The notes beneath the pieces were generated by a model. The model was given only the letters and a program-made list of their open reading frames with translations, did not search any database and was not told where the DNA came from. Below are positions 1 to 18,083 of a stretch of 21,139 nt of DNA, one piece after another. Numbering within the stretch: the stretch's first letter is position 1; every line of letters starts with the position of its first letter. The position numbers and the translations under genes are program-made. The stretch is from positions 1 through 21,139 of IMG/VR virus record IMGVR_UViG_3300030389_003471; one strand, given 5' to 3'. This stretch comes from a virus.

Positions 1-3000
1 TCTACAACAGTAAACTCATCTTCAGTCTCTTCTTGGTATTTACACCAATACGAACTTGCATTGAGAGTAACTTTTTGACCGGGAAGAGGGTGATCTTCTG
101 GTGTGTAAAATACGCCTTGTGCCGGAGATGAGCCTGCACCATAAGAAGACGGATCCACACTATCTGAATATTCCGCACAACCTGCAACATGAATACAATT
201 ATTTCCGTTTATATTCGCATTAGGATCAAAGTTTTCAGGGCTAAGTATAACTTGGTAATTGCCACTTGGTGTTTCACCATCGCCTTCGTAATGGATAACA
301 TCTCCAATGCTATCAATACACCCAACATTAACAACATTCTCATTAGATGTGTCATGTGCTTGCAAACATGTTATAGATATTTTATCTAAATCTTTATTGA
401 CTTTGGTTACTATAAACTTGCCCCAAGCTGGCTGACCGTTAACAATGTTAGCAAAGTCTTCTCCTTGAAAGTCTTTACTATAATCTATACCATAAGGCTT
501 TTTATTGTCACTACCAAGCAAATCATCAAACTTTAACAAATCTCCAACATTTATGTACAAGTACTTTAAAGGTAGCGTCATATCTATTTGTAGCCTTTGG
601 TTGCAATAGTTTGCTAAATAATACTTTCCAAATCTTTTTGCGGTTGAGCCCTCTCTTATATAATCTAGTTCAATAACCTTTTCCCTTAAAGAGTAATAAC
701 TCATATCGTAATTTGGGAAAATAGAGGTTGCGTCGACAGGGTTCATTTTATACTCATAGTCGTTTGATCCATAATTCTTCTTATACTTAATAACAAGCCT
801 ATTCACAACTTCGTCTATAGGTGTTTTTTTATAAGAGTACCCAATAACATCATTTGCCTCTACTGTAGTTACAATGCTACCAATAGTGCTACCAGATGTA
901 TATTCTAAATTATCGTAAAGAGATCCCTCTAATGTAATAAACTTTAACTCGCCTTTATCGATCATAGGCATAAAATTAGTCTCTAAAGAAAAGTCTTCTA
1001 TAAATTTTTTGATATTTGTTTTTTTGTTTAAGGAGAAAGAGTAATTAAAGTCTCCATTAGACTCCCTTGAGATAGCACCACCATTATCTTCAGTTGAACT
1101 ATCAACAGCAGGTGTAAATATAGGGAATACTTCATCATTAGGAAGATACCACTCTCTAAGGTATAAAGAATCTAAATGCTCAATAGAATGTCTTCCTGTT
1201 TGCTTGACAGGTATTAAAAGGTCGTTTGAAGCTATAAACTCCATTATTCTGTGCGGAGCTGTAGATTTATAGCCTTCTCCAAAATCAAACCCAAACCTTC
1301 TAACAAAATAGTCCTTATCTCTAGCTCCATCAAGCAAAGCTCTAGTAATAAACTTAATTCCATAAATATCCAAACTGTGCGAATAGTTTGAAGTCTCAAA
1401 TGAAGACTGCCCATAAAATCCTAAATTTATAAAATTTTGCGTAGTGTCTACATGTGGTTGATTGGGTGTTATAGTAAATTTTTCATGCTCACCAAACAAA
1501 CTATCATGCGTAAAAGAATAAAGTGCATTTTCACCAACAAGCTGACCCCAACCCTGAATGTCAGTTGCAGTACCATTCACATCTTGTGTTAAATCTACAT
1601 TATCATTAATACTTAATGGTGCAAAGCTAGTTTCATCATCTAGGGGAGCTCCTGCGGGGTATCCAAATGTTCTAAATCCTATCCTAGAAGTATCTTTAGC
1701 TGTGTATTGAAATTCACTTTCATTTCCAAAGAAATCAGTAGTAGTTTCGCCAATATTTTCTATGTTGACAGTACCTTTTATTTTAAGATAAATGTCAATT
1801 TCTATGTCTCTGTCTGAATCAAAAGGGCTTTCTTTGAAAAACATTGATGCATGTTTACCACCAAAGCCATCTAAAACTATATAATCATTTAAACCTGTGT
1901 ATGTAAGTTCATTTTCAAATGTTTCTGCAAAATTAATATAGGGATAGGAATCTACACTTCCTTGATAGGGGGATGTATTAAAAACACCTTCAATTAATAG
2001 CTCTTCATCTGTAGTGCTGTTTGTTAAAAAACACCCTGCTTGTCGAGATGTAAAAGTTATATTTTTAACCTTTTTTTCGTAAAGAGTAAGAACCTCGTCT
2101 CGTGTTATATTGTTTTCATTAAAAGGATTAAAAGTTATGTAATTGTTGTTTGGCTCGTATTTAAAGTTTGAATCTGCGTCTTGCATTGAGCCTGTGCCAT
2201 CATTTCCGTAAGAAAGACCTCTAAAGCTATTATCATACACAGATAACGTGCTAAATATAATACCTTGTCCAAGGGTCGATGCTATATCTATAAGACCTTC
2301 GTTTTTTAGTATAACAGGTTGTGCTTGTTCGATAATAAAATTATCAGGTAAGTCTAATTCAGGTAATGCAGTTTTTTTAGTTGATATGGCTCCTGTGTAT
2401 ATTCTATCAGAACCTGTAACGCAAGGAGAGTGATCTACATATCCAAACACATAAGGCAAGTATTCACCTATTGACCTATCAGATGGTGTGCCTTGTATGT
2501 TAGAATTTGAAGTGCTAACCTCATTGGTTATATATGGAATGTTTGTATCTCTTGCTGATTTCTCTGTAACATCCTCAACCTCTACAGATATTACATGATT
2601 TTTTATGTTCACCTCTGTTATAAAACCATCATAGGCGTAATAACAATATTTTAAAGCTTCTTCATAGCTGTAGTCAGGACTATCAAATCTAGTGCTTTGT
2701 GATTTAAAATATACCTTAACTTTTTTGTCAAACAGTTTGTTTGTTATATTTGTATCTGGATCACTAAAAAAGTCTGTAAGGTCGCTAAAATCTAAGTTCA
2801 TTGAGCTTGTTTTAAACTTTTTGCTAAAAAAATCTACGCTTTGAGATACCCTTGGGATGTTTAAGAGTAAAGGATGGTAAGGTCGTTGACCTGTTACGCT
2901 AAGTGGTACAGTTGAAAATTTTAAAGTTTCTTCTTCTAACTCTATGTGTATAAGGGGAATAATTTGGGGATTTCTAGACTGTATGTCATTTAAAAAAGTT

Positions 3001-3026
3001 TGAGGTATTTCTAAACTTGTTGCCAT
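1..3026 (-). CDS. Tail hub/tip-like protein, C-terminus beyond window
   Basis: An uninterrupted frame of 1008 codons runs from an ATG at 3026 off the left edge, so the protein is partial at its C-terminus. It follows the tape measure and a miniprotein, the usual slot for the tail-tip hub. Residues 1 to about 165 are beta-rich and contain a GFITEVNIKNHVISVEVEDV stretch resembling the N-terminal barrel of phage hub proteins. At about residues 735-830 lies a second recognisable pattern: an EVVNRLVIKYKKNYG strand, then RFGKYYLANYCNQR, then a LYINVGDLLKF element, as in hub or gpJ-like proteins where a helix precedes an 'xVGDxxxF' strand. The start shares an A with the previous stop (TAATG), implying coupled translation. 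The hub role is inferred from position and these patterns. A tail-fibre or spike role for the C-terminal part is possible. No catalytic motif was recognised. Confidence 0.72.
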   Translation of the reverse strand, partial: MATSLEIPQTFLNDIQSRNPQIIPLIHIELEEETLKFSTVPLSVTGQRPYHPLLLNIPRVSQSVDFFSKKFKTSSMNLDFSDLTDFFSDPDTNITNKLFDKKVKVYFKSQSTRFDSPDYSYEEALKYCYYAYDGFITEVNIKNHVISVEVEDVTEKSARDTNIPYITNEVSTSNSNIQGTPSDRSIGEYLPYVFGYVDHSPCVTGSDRIYTGAISTKKTALPELDLPDNFIIEQAQPVILKNEGLIDIASTLGQGIIFSTLSVYDNSFRGLSYGNDGTGSMQDADSNFKYEPNNNYITFNPFNENNITRDEVLTLYEKKVKNITFTSRQAGCFLTNSTTDEELLIEGVFNTSPYQGSVDSYPYINFAETFENELTYTGLNDYIVLDGFGGKHASMFFKESPFDSDRDIEIDIYLKIKGTVNIENIGETTTDFFGNESEFQYTAKDTSRIGFRTFGYPAGAPLDDETSFAPLSINDNVDLTQDVNGTATDIQGWGQLVGENALYSFTHDSLFGEHEKFTITPNQPHVDTTQNFINLGFYGQSSFETSNYSHSLDIYGIKFITRALLDGARDKDYFVRRFGFDFGEGYKSTAPHRIMEFIASNDLLIPVKQTGRHSIEHLDSLYLREWYLPNDEVFPIFTPAVDSSTEDNGGAISRESNGDFNYSFSLNKKTNIKKFIEDFSLETNFMPMIDKGELKFITLEGSLYDNLEYTSGSTIGSIVTTVEANDVIGYSYKKTPIDEVVNRLVIKYKKNYGSNDYEYKMNPVDATSIFPNYDMSYYSLREKVIELDYIREGSTAKRFGKYYLANYCNQRLQIDMTLPLKYLYINVGDLLKFDDLLGSDNKKPYGIDYSKDFQGEDFANIVNGQPAWGKFIVTKVNKDLDKISITCLQAHDTSNENVVNVGCIDSIGDVIHYEGDGETPSGNYQVILSPENFDPNANINGNNCIHVAGCAEYSDSVDPSSYGAGSSPAQGVFYTPEDHPLPGQKVTLNASSYWCKYQEETEDEFTVV

Positions 3027-5691: not shown

Positions 5692-6729
5692 TTAGCAAGC
5701 AACTTCTACTAAGGCGTTAGTTGCATCGCCAACAGCTTTAACTGATACATCTAACATCATAATATCACCTTCATTAAATGCGACATTTGTAAGAACTGAT
5801 TTTGGTATACTTATGCCAAAAGCTCCATCAGTAAGACTTGCGTCATTGTTTAGTATTGTAGCTTGTGATGCTGTTGCACCTTCTTGTGTTTGGTTGTTAA
5901 AAGATGCAATAAGTGGTTCAGTATTTACATCGTATTTGACTGTTGCGTCTAAAGTCGCTGAAAACTCTCCAGCTCTTGAAGCAATTTCATATCCTGTAGA
6001 AGAAAGACCTGAAAATGTTGCAGGATTTTCCAATGTCAATGAAAATGAACTCATAACCAAATCATCAACTCCATACATCTTTCTATATGAAGTATCGCTC
6101 CAACTACTCATAAAATAGTTTTCATCGGCTCCAAACGCTGTATCTACACCTTGATCGGCACCAGAACCCAAAGCAGCATCTGAAAGATCTTCTGCTAAAG
6201 TTCCTGTTTGAAATGTAGCTGAAAACTTAACTCTCCCACCTTCAGTTCCTGCGTCACCACTTAAATTCAATGAAGTAACAACACAGTCTTTAAAAGCTAG
6301 ATTTGAGTTGCTTAAAGGTGATATTATAATAAGTGAAAGCAAGGTTCCTGCTTGACTTGAATCAGTTTTTCCTACTGATTGAACACCTGCATTTGAAGCA
6401 AAAGAATATACACCGCTCGCTGAACCTTCTGCTTCTCCCATTATGTTTTCTAAAAGCATATCAAGTGCATCTGTAGTTGCTGTACCTGATACTGAGATTT
6501 CTTTAACAGATGCTTTTACATCTTGAAAGAAGTCTTCTTTTTGCAATACCCTACTTCCTGTTCTCACATCAAGAGATTGGTTAGGGTTTAAAGATGGGAA
6601 TCCTACAGAATCCACATCTAAGCCGTGATAGGGATTTCCACCGTCTGCCTCTATAGTTCCAAAATCATCTTGCTCTGCTATGGCAACTTCAAATTGTTTT
6701 GGTGAAAAAGCCGCTGTATTAATAGCCAT
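5692..6729 (-). CDS. Major tail (tube) protein
   Basis: This 345-residue protein precedes the G/GT chaperones, where siphovirus tube proteins lie. It starts MAINTAAFSPKQFEVAIAEQ, then is strongly beta-strand with many Ser, Thr, Gly and Asp residues. It includes a VKEISVSGTATTDALDMLLENI stretch (strand, then a helix counting subunits around the ring) and alternating hydrophobic strands such as SFSLTLENPATFSG and GRVKFSATFQTGT, as expected of the tail-tube fold. Length exceeds the shortest tube proteins (about 150-250 residues), so an extra surface domain is likely in the middle or C-terminal part. The ATG overlaps the stop of the 61-residue gene (TAATG). Identification rests on position and composition. 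Confidence 0.78.
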   Translation of the reverse strand: MAINTAAFSPKQFEVAIAEQDDFGTIEADGGNPYHGLDVDSVGFPSLNPNQSLDVRTGSRVLQKEDFFQDVKASVKEISVSGTATTDALDMLLENIMGEAEGSASGVYSFASNAGVQSVGKTDSSQAGTLLSLIIISPLSNSNLAFKDCVVTSLNLSGDAGTEGGRVKFSATFQTGTLAEDLSDAALGSGADQGVDTAFGADENYFMSSWSDTSYRKMYGVDDLVMSSFSLTLENPATFSGLSSTGYEIASRAGEFSATLDATVKYDVNTEPLIASFNNQTQEGATASQATILNNDASLTDGAFGISIPKSVLTNVAFNEGDIMMLDVSVKAVGDATNALVEVAC

Positions 6730-14566: not shown

Positions 14567-14968
14567 CTATAGAGATTTGATAATGTTGCTCAGTTCTACA
14601 GCTCTATTTGGTGTCTGCCTAGCCCATTTGCTATCTAGCATTTCGACTGAAGCTTCTTGCCATTTGTGGTTTTTAAGGTAAGAAAGTGTTTTCTTGAACT
14701 TAGAAACACCCCCAATACCTAGTTGGTAGCACATATTGACCACTACATGTTGTGCCTTTTCCGGTATTCTGTCATACCAAGTAAATGTTCTTTTAATTCT
14801 TTTTATTAGATGATTTAGCTTTCTTTGAAGGATTATATCGGCAATATCTTGATCTAAGACTAAGTCCTTAACCGCAAAGCCGTATCCTATAGTGTCTACC
14901 CCAGCAGTGCACTTGTATACTGTATCTTTAAATCCTTCGTGTTTTTTAATTTCGTCTATTAATTTCAT
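14567..14968 (-). CDS. Endolysin: T4-type lysozyme (GH24 muramidase)
   Basis: This 133-residue enzyme cleaves the glycan strand of peptidoglycan. It starts MKLIDEIKKHEGFKDTVYKC and continues TAGVDTIGYG. E11, C20 and T26 fall at the E-x8-(D/C)-x5-T spacing of the GH24 catalytic triad, with Cys replacing Asp as in several phage lysozymes; E11 is at the same residue number as in T4 lysozyme, which fixes the start. A later VVVNMCYQLGIGGVSKFKKT matches the 'NxxYNLG..' helix of the family. There is no signal peptide or membrane anchor, so a holin is needed for release. No Shine-Dalgarno sequence precedes the ATG, and a terminator hairpin ends only 10 bases upstream, so expression probably depends on the overlapping promoter. 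Confidence 0.92.
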   Translation of the reverse strand: MKLIDEIKKHEGFKDTVYKCTAGVDTIGYGFAVKDLVLDQDIADIILQRKLNHLIKRIKRTFTWYDRIPEKAQHVVVNMCYQLGIGGVSKFKKTLSYLKNHKWQEASVEMLDSKWARQTPNRAVELSNIIKSL

Positions 14969-14971
14969 ATT

Positions 14972-15002
14972 AATAAAAGGGGGCAGTTTCCCACCCCCTC
15001 TA
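14972..15002 (-). terminator. Rho-independent terminator after the capsid gene
   Basis: On the - strand, AGGGGG-TGG, a GAAA tetraloop, CTG-CCCCCT and then TTTATTA. Five G:C pairs, two G:U-type pairs and one G:C pair close the GAAA loop (loop 14987-14990; arms about 14979-14986 and 14991-14998), and the next outward A/T pairs extend the stem. A short T-rich tract (14972-14978) follows. This is a strong intrinsic terminator placed between capsid and lysozyme. Confidence 0.85.
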
Positions 15003-15030
15003 TTATCAATTAACTATTATTTATTGTCAA
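15002..15030 (-). promoter_or_regulatory. Near-consensus sigma-70-type promoter for the lysis genes
   Basis: TTGACA (15030-15025), 17 bases, GATAAT (15007-15002): one mismatch to the sigma-70 consensus with ideal spacing. The -35 lies in the last codons of the capsid gene. Initiation about seven bases beyond the -10 would fall near 14995, inside the 5' arm of the terminator stem. Confidence 0.7.
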
Positions 15031-16075
15031 TCAATGCGACAATTCTTCTGTCGCCTGTAGTGTTAGCATTTCTGACTGCACAGCCATATATAGAATCAAC
15101 TGTAATTAAATCAGATAATTCTGTATGCTGGTAAGACTGTTGTACTCTTGGTGCTTGAGCAGCAGCATAATACAATGCTGAGTTGTGAATTGCGAAACCT
15201 CTAAGAGCGTCATCATTAGTTGAATCATCTCCGCCTGTTCCACTTGTATCAAAACCTTCCCAAGCTGTGATACCTTTGTCAGCGTCTACTGCCACATCTT
15301 CAACTTCAAGGTATGGGCTGTTAGATAGTATGACAGGCATACCTAGAATATTTCCAACAACACCTGATGAAGCAAATGTAGCCCCTGCTGGTGAAGCAGA
15401 ACCTCTAACAAAACCTGCACCTGAGTCAAGATTTGCAAGGCTACCATATAGTTTTGTTCCTAAAACTAATGACCATCCTTCCATAGACCCTGTCTCTATA
15501 GTACATTTTTCCATCAACTCTCCTAATATAGAAGCACTTAATGCTGTGCCACAATCTATGGTTCCGTCTGTTGCTGCAAATGCAACACCTGTAGCTGTTC
15601 CATATACTGTGCTAAGATTGCTAGCAACCTTGTACATTAAGTAGTTATCTACGCCCCTGCTGATAGCATAAGCCAACTGATCAGAGTACATGTTGAACAA
15701 ATTGTATGAAGCCTGTGCTTTTAAAGCATCAGGTATCCATAGAGATGTTACTTTATGTTGATCTATAGTTAGCTGAGTTTCAGTTGCTACCATTGATCCT
15801 CCTGTTGTAACATCTGAGGCTATCGGAGTTCCTTGTACTACAGATGATAACGGTGTGACACCGATGTGTGGTAGGTGAATTACATCTGCACCTCCAGCTG
15901 CTTCTGATGATAGGTCATTAGCAAGTTGCAACATCATTGTTTTTTGTCTAAATTTGTCAAGAATAGCTTGTCCCCAAACCTCAGGTACAAATTCTTGACC
16001 TACAGAATCTGATGCGGCTGCCGAAGCACCACCTTGCAGCATATTAATATCCAATGGATCACTTATATTCGCCAT
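15017..16075 (-). CDS. Major capsid protein (HK97-fold)
   Basis: The protein of 352 residues follows the scaffold gene. The start MANISDPLDINMLQ leads into EFVPEVWGQAILDKFRQKTM, then strands (ADVIHLPHIG) and a helix/strand sequence (TIDQHKVTSLWIPDALKAQA) matching the E-loop to spine-helix region of HK97-fold capsids. The end is rich in strands (YYAAAQAPRVQQSYQHTELS; YGCAVRNANTTGDRR). It resembles the P22-like/non-cleaved group more than HK97 itself, and no N-terminal prohead-delta region is present because the scaffold is separate. AGGAG lies 10 bases from the ATG through a run of A. The gene ends in the lysis promoter and terminator. Confidence 0.88.
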   Translation of the reverse strand: MANISDPLDINMLQGGASAAASDSVGQEFVPEVWGQAILDKFRQKTMMLQLANDLSSEAAGGADVIHLPHIGVTPLSSVVQGTPIASDVTTGGSMVATETQLTIDQHKVTSLWIPDALKAQASYNLFNMYSDQLAYAISRGVDNYLMYKVASNLSTVYGTATGVAFAATDGTIDCGTALSASILGELMEKCTIETGSMEGWSLVLGTKLYGSLANLDSGAGFVRGSASPAGATFASSGVVGNILGMPVILSNSPYLEVEDVAVDADKGITAWEGFDTSGTGGDDSTNDDALRGFAIHNSALYYAAAQAPRVQQSYQHTELSDLITVDSIYGCAVRNANTTGDRRIVALIDNK

Positions 16076-16130: not shown

Positions 16131-16655
16131 TTATTTTTTTTGTTTATAGGAATTTAGGATGTCCCTCCAATTACTTTTCTGCTCTTTTGGTGTTAAGTCC
16201 AACCAATTAGAAACATCTTTCTTTGATTGAACCACCCCTCTAGCTTGAGGTTCAGATGCAGATTTAGTGGCAAGATTTTCAACCATAAATTCCAAGACAT
16301 CTAAATCTTTGTTTTTAAATTCATCACGCTTGCTTTCTGGAAGCATTTGAAGTAGCTTTTCTTTGTTCTTTTGCTCCATAGCCTCAAATTTTTCCTTATA
16401 AGGCATGGTCTGATTAAGTTGAGATTCTAGCTTTTCAGCTAACTGCTTAAACTCCTCTTGCTCCTTTAGCTTGGCATTTTCTTGCTCATTGAATTTAGCT
16501 TCAAGTTCAGCAATTCGTGCCTCAGCGTCTTGTGCCCTCTTGCGATACTTTTTGCTTTCTGCAATTAAACCTTCAGATTCGGGCTGAATCTGAGATTCGT
16601 TCTGTGTAGTAACTTCCTCTACTGATTTGTTTGCTACTATTTTCTCTTCGGACAT
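16131..16655 (-). CDS. Capsid scaffolding protein
   Basis: Highly charged helical protein of 174 residues directly before the capsid gene. Residues about 30-105 are a continuous coiled coil (KKYRKRAQDAEARIAELEAK and following), followed by LLQMLPESKRDEFKNKDLDVLEF and a basic C-terminus (WRDILNSYKQKK). Coiled coil plus basic end that contacts the shell is standard for scaffold proteins that are removed during maturation. I chose the ATG at 16655 rather than 16667 because GGAGG sits five bases upstream of it; the earlier ATG would place that site inside the gene. It is the first gene of the leftward operon. Confidence 0.85.
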   Translation of the reverse strand: MSEEKIVANKSVEEVTTQNESQIQPESEGLIAESKKYRKRAQDAEARIAELEAKFNEQENAKLKEQEEFKQLAEKLESQLNQTMPYKEKFEAMEQKNKEKLLQMLPESKRDEFKNKDLDVLEFMVENLATKSASEPQARGVVQSKKDVSNWLDLTPKEQKSNWRDILNSYKQKK

Positions 16656-16685
16656 ACTGCCCTCCATGTTGTGTTTTAAAAAAGA

Positions 16686-16720
16686 TTTATACTATATATT
16701 GCATAAATCACCTATCGTAA
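16686..16720 (-). promoter_or_regulatory. Candidate promoter for the leftward operon
   Basis: On the - strand TTACGA (16720-16715) is followed after 16 to 18 bases by overlapping TATATA (16698-16693) and TATAGT (16696-16691), then TATAAA (16691-16686). The -10 side is good and the -35 has three of six matches. A promoter must exist near here because this is a divergent gene start; the exact position is uncertain. Confidence 0.4.
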
Positions 16721-16734
16721 CTTAAATTACAATG

Positions 16735-16766
16735 ACTATTATATGCAAATATTTTGCGATAATAGT
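16735..16766. promoter_or_regulatory. Dyad over the large-terminase promoter/start
   Basis: ACTATTAT (16735-16742) and ATAATAGT (16759-16766) are exact inverted copies; inside them GCAAA (16745-16749) and TTTGC (16753-16757) form a second pair. The right arm carries TGCGATAAT (16755-16763), an extended -10-like element, on the + strand. Transcription from it would begin about six bases before the terminase ATG. It could be an operator or a 5'-end RNA hairpin. Confidence 0.45.
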
Positions 16767-16775
16767 TAAAAAAAT

Positions 16776-18083
16776 ATGGGAAATGATTTAAGAAAATTTA
16801 AAAGACAATGGTTTGAGTTTATGGACTATAAGCCCCATCAAGGTCAACATAAACTGCATTTCCCTAAGAAACAAAGTGCAAGGTTTTTTGTAATGATATG
16901 TGGAAGGGGTTATGGTAAAACCTTCAGCTCTGCAAAAGAAGCATCTTTTGTTGCATCTCTTCCTAACAAGAAGGTCGCACTCGTGGGACTGTCTTATAAA
17001 AAATCTAAATTGCTTTTTGAAGAAATATGGAGAACGATGGTCGTTCCTAACAAGAATGATGTTGTAAAGGCTTCTGAAAAAGATCAGTATGTAAGGTTTA
17101 AATGGGGCTCTTCTATTGAGGGGCTTTCTGCTGATAACCCAGATTCCCTTGTTGGTGATGAGTATGATCTTGCAATTATGGACGAAGCTGCAAAAATGAA
17201 GCAAGAGATATGGGACATGTACTTATCTCCTGCTGTTGGAAGGCGAAATGGCAAAGCAATCTTTATATCAACTCCTCAAGGGTTTAATTGGCTTTACGAT
17301 AAATTCTTATTAGGTAAGTCAGATCCGATGTGGGAAAGCCATACAGCTCCATCATGGGAAAATCAATATGCTTATCCCGGCGGCAAAAACAATTCTGTTA
17401 TAGTTGAAAGAAAAAGAAACATGTCTAAGGAAGTGTTTAATCAAGAGTATGGAGCGCAATTCACATCGTTTGCAGGGCAAGTTTATCCGTTTGACAGAAA
17501 TACACATGTCGGTAAATATGGATACAACCCAAACTTCCCTACGTTTTGTGCTATTGACTTTGGGTATAGGATGCCTGCTGTAGGATGGTTTCAAACTTAC
17601 TCAGTAGGAGGTATAACTCATGTAAACATGATAGATGAAATACTGCATGAATCAAACATTAAAACTGATGACCTAGCCCAAAGAATAAAAGATAAAAAAT
17701 ATTATGTTAGAGAATACTACGGAGACCCTGCTGGCATGCAAGCTCAAGGTCAATCAGGATTAGGAGATATAGAGATTTTTAAAAGAAAAGGCATAAAAGT
17801 TAAAACAGTTCGAGATAAAGCCTCAAGAAATAAGGCTTCAGGGGAAAGTCATGTTAGAGGTTTCTTAGAAGCCGCAGACGGTTCAATAAGATTTCACATA
17901 GATGAAAAATGTAAAGGTATACAAGAAGATTTAGAATCACTACGATACCCTGAAAACTCAGGAGATTTAAAACCTGAGTCATTAAAGGACGGGCATCACG
18001 ACCATGGATGCGATATGGTTAGATATTTTTTTATTAACAGGTTTCCAATCAAAAACAGAGAGATTAAAATAAGGGGAAGATAA
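16776..18083 (+). CDS. terL: Terminase large subunit
   Basis: The ATP-driven packaging motor and headful/cos nuclease. Residues 43-49 are a Walker A variant (GRGYGKT), 132-137 a Walker B with the catalytic Glu (LAIMDE), followed by IFISTPQG coupling motif. The C-terminal RNase H-like nuclease shows acidic residues D261 (FCAIDFGY), D317 (EYYGDPAG), D409 and D413 (HHDHGCDMVRY). Length 435 is typical. No Shine-Dalgarno sequence is visible before the ATG; the upstream bases are A/T only and a dyad lies ten bases away. The stop overlaps the portal start (TAATG). The small subunit is not upstream as usual but about 4.5 kb away on the other strand. Confidence 0.95.
   Translation: MGNDLRKFKRQWFEFMDYKPHQGQHKLHFPKKQSARFFVMICGRGYGKTFSSAKEASFVASLPNKKVALVGLSYKKSKLLFEEIWRTMVVPNKNDVVKASEKDQYVRFKWGSSIEGLSADNPDSLVGDEYDLAIMDEAAKMKQEIWDMYLSPAVGRRNGKAIFISTPQGFNWLYDKFLLGKSDPMWESHTAPSWENQYAYPGGKNNSVIVERKRNMSKEVFNQEYGAQFTSFAGQVYPFDRNTHVGKYGYNPNFPTFCAIDFGYRMPAVGWFQTYSVGGITHVNMIDEILHESNIKTDDLAQRIKDKKYYVREYYGDPAGMQAQGQSGLGDIEIFKRKGIKVKTVRDKASRNKASGESHVRGFLEAADGSIRFHIDEKCKGIQEDLESLRYPENSGDLKPESLKDGHHDHGCDMVRYFFINRFPIKNREIKIRGR

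Follow-up and report, generated by a model that had tools for sequence, protein, structure and literature searches.

A strong hairpin lies directly behind the major capsid protein gene of the window (the whole stretch of 21,139 nucleotides of viral DNA analysed here). On the evidence of sequence, it quite probably serves as a leaky intrinsic terminator of the capsid gene's 3' end, with partial read-through into the genes downstream and with the promoter nested against it present by chance. The capsid gene (15017..16075, minus strand; 352 aa) was recognized by its match to PHROG 267, major head protein (E 8e-25), and ends in a stop codon at 15019-15017. Beyond it on the same strand, the hairpin AGAGGGGGTGGGAAACTGCCCCCTTT occupies 14976..15001 and is built on a core, GGGGGUGG-GAAA-CUGCCCCC (equivalently GGGGGTGG-GAAA-CTGCCCCC; 14998-14979), whose GAAA loop falls at 14990-14987. 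A T-rich tail, UUUUAUUA (equivalently TTTTATTA), follows at 14971..14978. The lysozyme (endolysin) gene (14567..14968, minus strand; PHROG 7 endolysin, E 5e-18; Pfam Phage_lysozyme) has its ATG at 14968, downstream of the hairpin. Elsewhere in the window, a scaffold-like gene and the capsid gene on the minus strand diverge at about 16700 from the terminase and the next gene on the plus strand (region 16131-18083), and a 1008-aa open frame (3-3026, minus strand) adjoins the tape measure gene and runs past the window end.

The hairpin and its association with the capsid gene

A fold scan of the whole window placed this hairpin first, at -17.9 kcal/mol, with the runner-up at -11.4 kcal/mol, and none of 200 shuffled sequences folded equally well (z = -4.46). 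The stem is stable and G+C-rich, as in intrinsic terminators. A known RNA family was dropped as its identity, as Rfam searches with the window and 12 loci returned no match over the curated threshold. The adjacency of hairpin and stop codon had also raised the idea of stop-codon read-through at the capsid end, and this too was dropped; more stop codons follow directly in the window.

Relatives of the capsid gene were collected from viral contigs, giving 38 loci, of which the 35 that extend through the hairpin form the informative set. In all 35 (capsid identity 65-93%) a strong hairpin was found soon after the capsid stop codon, and their stems include several quite unlike sequences. A post-capsid hairpin was also present in relatives at 22-51% capsid identity, and at 22-28% it lay behind the capsid gene even though another gene mostly separates capsid from lysozyme. 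When 74 long ORFs from nine loci were compared, the nine capsid ends carried the top nine hairpins (-14.7 to -19.3 kcal/mol; best other, -13.0; median, -3.9). Lysozyme genes found elsewhere, with no related capsid gene just upstream, had no upstream hairpin stronger than -6.9 kcal/mol, whereas hairpins behind capsid genes in the same comparison ranged from -14.7 to -20.5 kcal/mol (loci up to L083). One relative, L007, retains the capsid gene and the hairpin, followed by a gene other than lysozyme. Because displaced lysozymes lack the hairpin and L007 keeps it before another gene, we assign it to the capsid gene; comparison of these loci indicates that the hairpin is part of that gene and tracks it rather than the lysozyme. 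An element linked to the lysozyme was dropped on the same evidence of displaced lysozymes. A search of cellular genomes with the window's capsid, made in order to find a host, gave no match.

The promoter-like match and the lysozyme start

The original prediction held that a near-consensus promoter at the end of the capsid gene starts transcription inside the hairpin's 5' arm, so that its RNAs lack most of that arm, escape the hairpin and allow one 59-base element to separate capsid from lysis expression. Hexamers and hairpin are both present where it had placed them. The match, TTGACA-17-GATAAT, spans 15002..15030 on the minus strand, with the -35 hexamer at 15030-15025, the -10 hexamer at 15007-15002 and a spacer of 17 nt. 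Agreement at 11 of 12 hexamer positions, ideal spacing and the correct distance speak for a sigma-70 promoter inside the terminator, whose transcripts, lacking the 5' arm, would provide separate lysozyme expression. We nevertheless consider such an arrangement very unlikely, as a match of this quality is expected at chance level: the window holds two sites with at least 11/12 matches compared with a mean of 0.95 per window in 100 dinucleotide shuffles, and 58% of those shuffled windows have one or more sites of 11/12 or better. The other 11/12 site (TTTACA-17-TATAAT; 11176, minus strand) lies within a coding region, as chance predicts.

The -35 hexamer is set by codons of the capsid C-terminus, ATT GAC AAT (I-D-N), and loci L002-L004 keep the I-D-N peptide while TTGACA is gone through synonymous change (ATA GAT AAT in L002). 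We scored promoter conservation as the best -35/-10 pair, with spacing of 16-18, adjoining the stem. The mean over the window and its 35 relatives was 7.4/12, compared with 7.2 for shuffled sequences, and apart from the window a single relative of the 35, L005 (10/12), had 9/12 or more matches at the hairpin. A comparison of relatives had been proposed with the original prediction; now carried out, it found the stem conserved and the promoter hexamers not. A conserved promoter at the stem was dropped, conservation of hexamers and spacing being at chance level. With hexamers no better than chance, and with hexamers and spacing not conserved alongside the stem, the near-consensus match at the capsid gene's end is real as a match and, in our judgement, probably a chance one. 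Since the hexamers are not kept across relatives, the nested promoter can be removed as a conserved mechanism, and one private to the window's genome may exist.

RNAs begun at this promoter are also predicted to behave differently from what had been proposed. A start about 7 nt past the -10 hexamer (14996-14995) costs only two to three of the eight core pairs rather than most of the 5' arm. Instead of escaping the hairpin, RNAs from 14996 or 14995 fold at -12.2 or -10.0 kcal/mol, respectively, partly through an additional stem in the start-codon region. What survives of the proposed separation of capsid and lysis expression is the predicted terminator between the two genes, without the nested promoter and without the escape.

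The closest precedent for the proposal is T4 gene e (lysozyme), where a late promoter lies inside the 5' strand of the leader hairpin and the effect is on translation (PMC3014915). The shared logic, that a transcript without the 5' arm escapes, lends the nested promoter some plausibility, at the level of translation. However, T4 gene e differs in that its control is translational and its promoter is kept in related phages, whereas relatives of the window do not keep the promoter and the lysozyme start codon is predicted to stay as buried in the short RNA as in the long one. A related possibility is that the long stem masks the lysozyme start codon, as in T4 gene e, so that little lysozyme is translated from capsid transcripts. 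The window's extended stem does come close to the ATG, and the lysozyme has no Shine-Dalgarno sequence. The original prediction was correct in the latter observation, which it took as the sign of a special leader, but such a lack is common, being found in 10 of 24 window genes (the same simple test throughout, with one gene at the window edge left out). Against masking, many relatives have a Shine-Dalgarno sequence and an ATG well past the hairpin, L007 has another gene after the hairpin, and truncation of the RNA leaves the start unexposed: folding predicts an unpaired probability of 0.25 for the lysozyme start in the long RNA and 0.29 in the truncated RNA. Start-codon occlusion of the T4 gene e type was dropped on the likeness of these two values, and we regard masking as extremely improbable.

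The recurring core and other capsid families

The 20-nt core GGGGGTGGGNAACTGCCCCC, searched with one loop base free, was found in at least 119 viral contigs, and a stem permuted without change of base composition gave no viral hits. In a cellular collection of about 85,000 genomes the same core gave 9 hits, mostly without a T-rich tail or a post-gene setting. Assignable viral copies were defined as the 111, among the matches listed, with an ORF ending no more than 60 nt upstream. Of these, 82 (24 of 36 sequence groups) lie behind a PHROG major head protein, the call for each group resting on its representative's PHROG match; 5 further copies lie behind a head-and-packaging structural protein and the others behind unassigned or other proteins, again among the matches listed. 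The capsid matches upstream of the core include PHROGs 267, 283, 544, 1328, 1357 and 9206 and Pfam families such as SU10_MCP and P22_CoatProtein. Some core-bearing ORF groups have no capsid profile match, yet have a comparable size and layout.

These counts allow for the possibility that the core, GGGGGUGGG-NAA-CUGCCCCC, represents an RNA element confined to viruses, with a specific stem and GNRA-type loop that are recognised downstream of capsid genes in unrelated phages. In its favour are the imbalance between viral and cellular hits, the absence of the permuted stem and, among the matches listed, the 24 upstream ORF groups with several different major-head-protein PHROGs. We hold this view to be doubtful, as the stem is swapped freely among close relatives, the viral collection is composed differently from the cellular one, and non-capsid genes precede some of the copies. 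Some of the imbalance may stem from these collection differences and from common descent among certain capsid modules. Sequences close to the core, or to its 3' part, occur in Vibrio phage 1.117.O (L429, 1501-1521) and Streptococcus phage Javan507 (L430, 1501-1520), behind a queuosine biosynthesis protein gene and a gene for a hypothetical protein, respectively; because these copies follow non-capsid genes, the core is not strictly capsid-linked. In the cellular collection, a contig of a Candidatus Nitrosotalea MAG (L241, about 5837-6674) carries the exact core, followed by a T-rich tail, at 8 nt past a 269-aa ORF; this ORF has a weak phage tail-fibre match, and the region is perhaps viral DNA binned with an archaeon.

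Because a search with the core selects for the core, we sampled two more capsid families, those of L128 and L127, using protein similarity as the sole criterion. The L128 family showed a hairpin 7-19 nt past the capsid stop in 79 of 79 loci, and in the L127 family a strong hairpin was found in 79 of 80 loci, nearly always 6-28 nt past the stop. Stem sequences change fast within both families, so it is the position and the structure, more than the sequence, that are conserved. The 5' arm was G-rich in 102 of 102 distinct capsid hairpins, which had been partly selected for it through the search pattern, and in 70 of 80 of the L127 family, so a strict rule of a G-rich 5' arm was dropped. The L127-family loci L414, L417-L420 and L423 have a C-rich 5' arm, opposite to most others of that family. 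Records of isolate phages also contain a hairpin near the capsid stop, namely those of HTVC115P, HTVC112P, HTVC026P, CRP-3, D6E, BUCT640, VP506 and lambda (gene E); in the records of Mycobacterium phage Scottish, S-CBP3 and Pf-WMP3 no such hairpin lies within the first 75 nt. The lambda hairpin, ATGGCCCTTCGGGGCCAT (L346, about 1162-1182), is strong and stands almost directly after the gene E stop.

Probable termination and possible protection at the capsid gene end

Analysis of the bases directly behind the stem revealed a T-rich tail. In the window's family (20 distinct sequences), T occupies positions +1, +2, +3 and +4 in 90, 85, 85 and 65%, respectively, and is near background from about +6 on. 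At +1 to +3 the L127 family has 79-82% T and the L128 family 64-75%. The window hairpin thus has the U-rich tail of an intrinsic terminator, albeit a short one. In many members the tail is short or broken, the stem being followed by TAACATTAAAAATG in L016 and by TAATAATATTTT in L007, and a terminator score was negative in 18-25% of distinct members.

These broken tails raise an alternative in which the hairpin chiefly shields the 3' end of the capsid mRNA, either from exonucleases or after cleavage downstream, and termination is minor. Loci with an interrupted T-tract (L007, L016, L047, L060, L081) still have a strong stem, and pairing of its flanks is maintained: the pair flanking the core, formed by AT, GC, TA or CG, is present in 87% of 53 distinct sequences compared with 55% when partners are shuffled. 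Protection, however, would need no T, and it is T, not A, that prevails right after the stem in three families. We therefore judge shielding unlikely to be the chief role. From these features we infer termination, partial read-through and mRNA protection at the hairpin, the partial read-through because the U-tract is short and the lysozyme follows at once without a conserved promoter of its own.

The hairpin is best read, from its sequence and setting, as belonging to a known kind, the leaky terminator behind a capsid gene. T-phi of T7 stands behind gene 10, the major capsid gene, and is leaky, with genes 11 and 12 made by read-through only (PMC5592923). The likeness lies in a leaky terminator right behind the capsid gene and in downstream genes reliant on read-through, which for the window is predicted; a conserved position directly behind the major capsid gene was found here in three capsid families. 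T-phi differs in its phage-type RNA polymerase, its C-rich 5' arm and a U-run longer than the window's. LUZ24-like phages have a terminator after the major head gene (PMC3890496), and one of them is Pseudomonas phage tf, whose record carries an annotated terminator right after that gene. In T7-like LUZ100 a terminator behind the head gene was found by transcript mapping (PMC10134795). In LUZ24-like phages and LUZ100 the location is as in the window and the stem sequence is different; for LUZ100, moreover, a local phage promoter for the capsid has been mapped, and none is known for the window virus. As for a general account of post-capsid hairpins, searches of the openly searchable literature turned up reports on single phages only.

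Under the preferred reading of a leaky terminator, RNA polymerase that has transcribed the scaffold and capsid genes would form the hairpin just past the capsid stop codon. With the short U-tract, part of the transcripts would be released there, and the remainder would continue into lysozyme and the genes beyond. The outcome would be capsid mRNA in excess over downstream mRNA, with added shielding of the capsid message by its stable 3' hairpin. What merits further attention is how widespread hairpins behind capsid genes are, and the core that recurs among them. Capsid genes overlooked by profile searches might be recognised simply from such a hairpin in the DNA. The general rule suggested by these data is that, in several families of tailed phages, mostly aquatic ones, a strong hairpin with a short U-tail lies no more than about 30 nt behind the major capsid gene, regardless of which gene comes next; if this rule is true, these phages would share with T7 its means of making capsid in excess over its neighbours.
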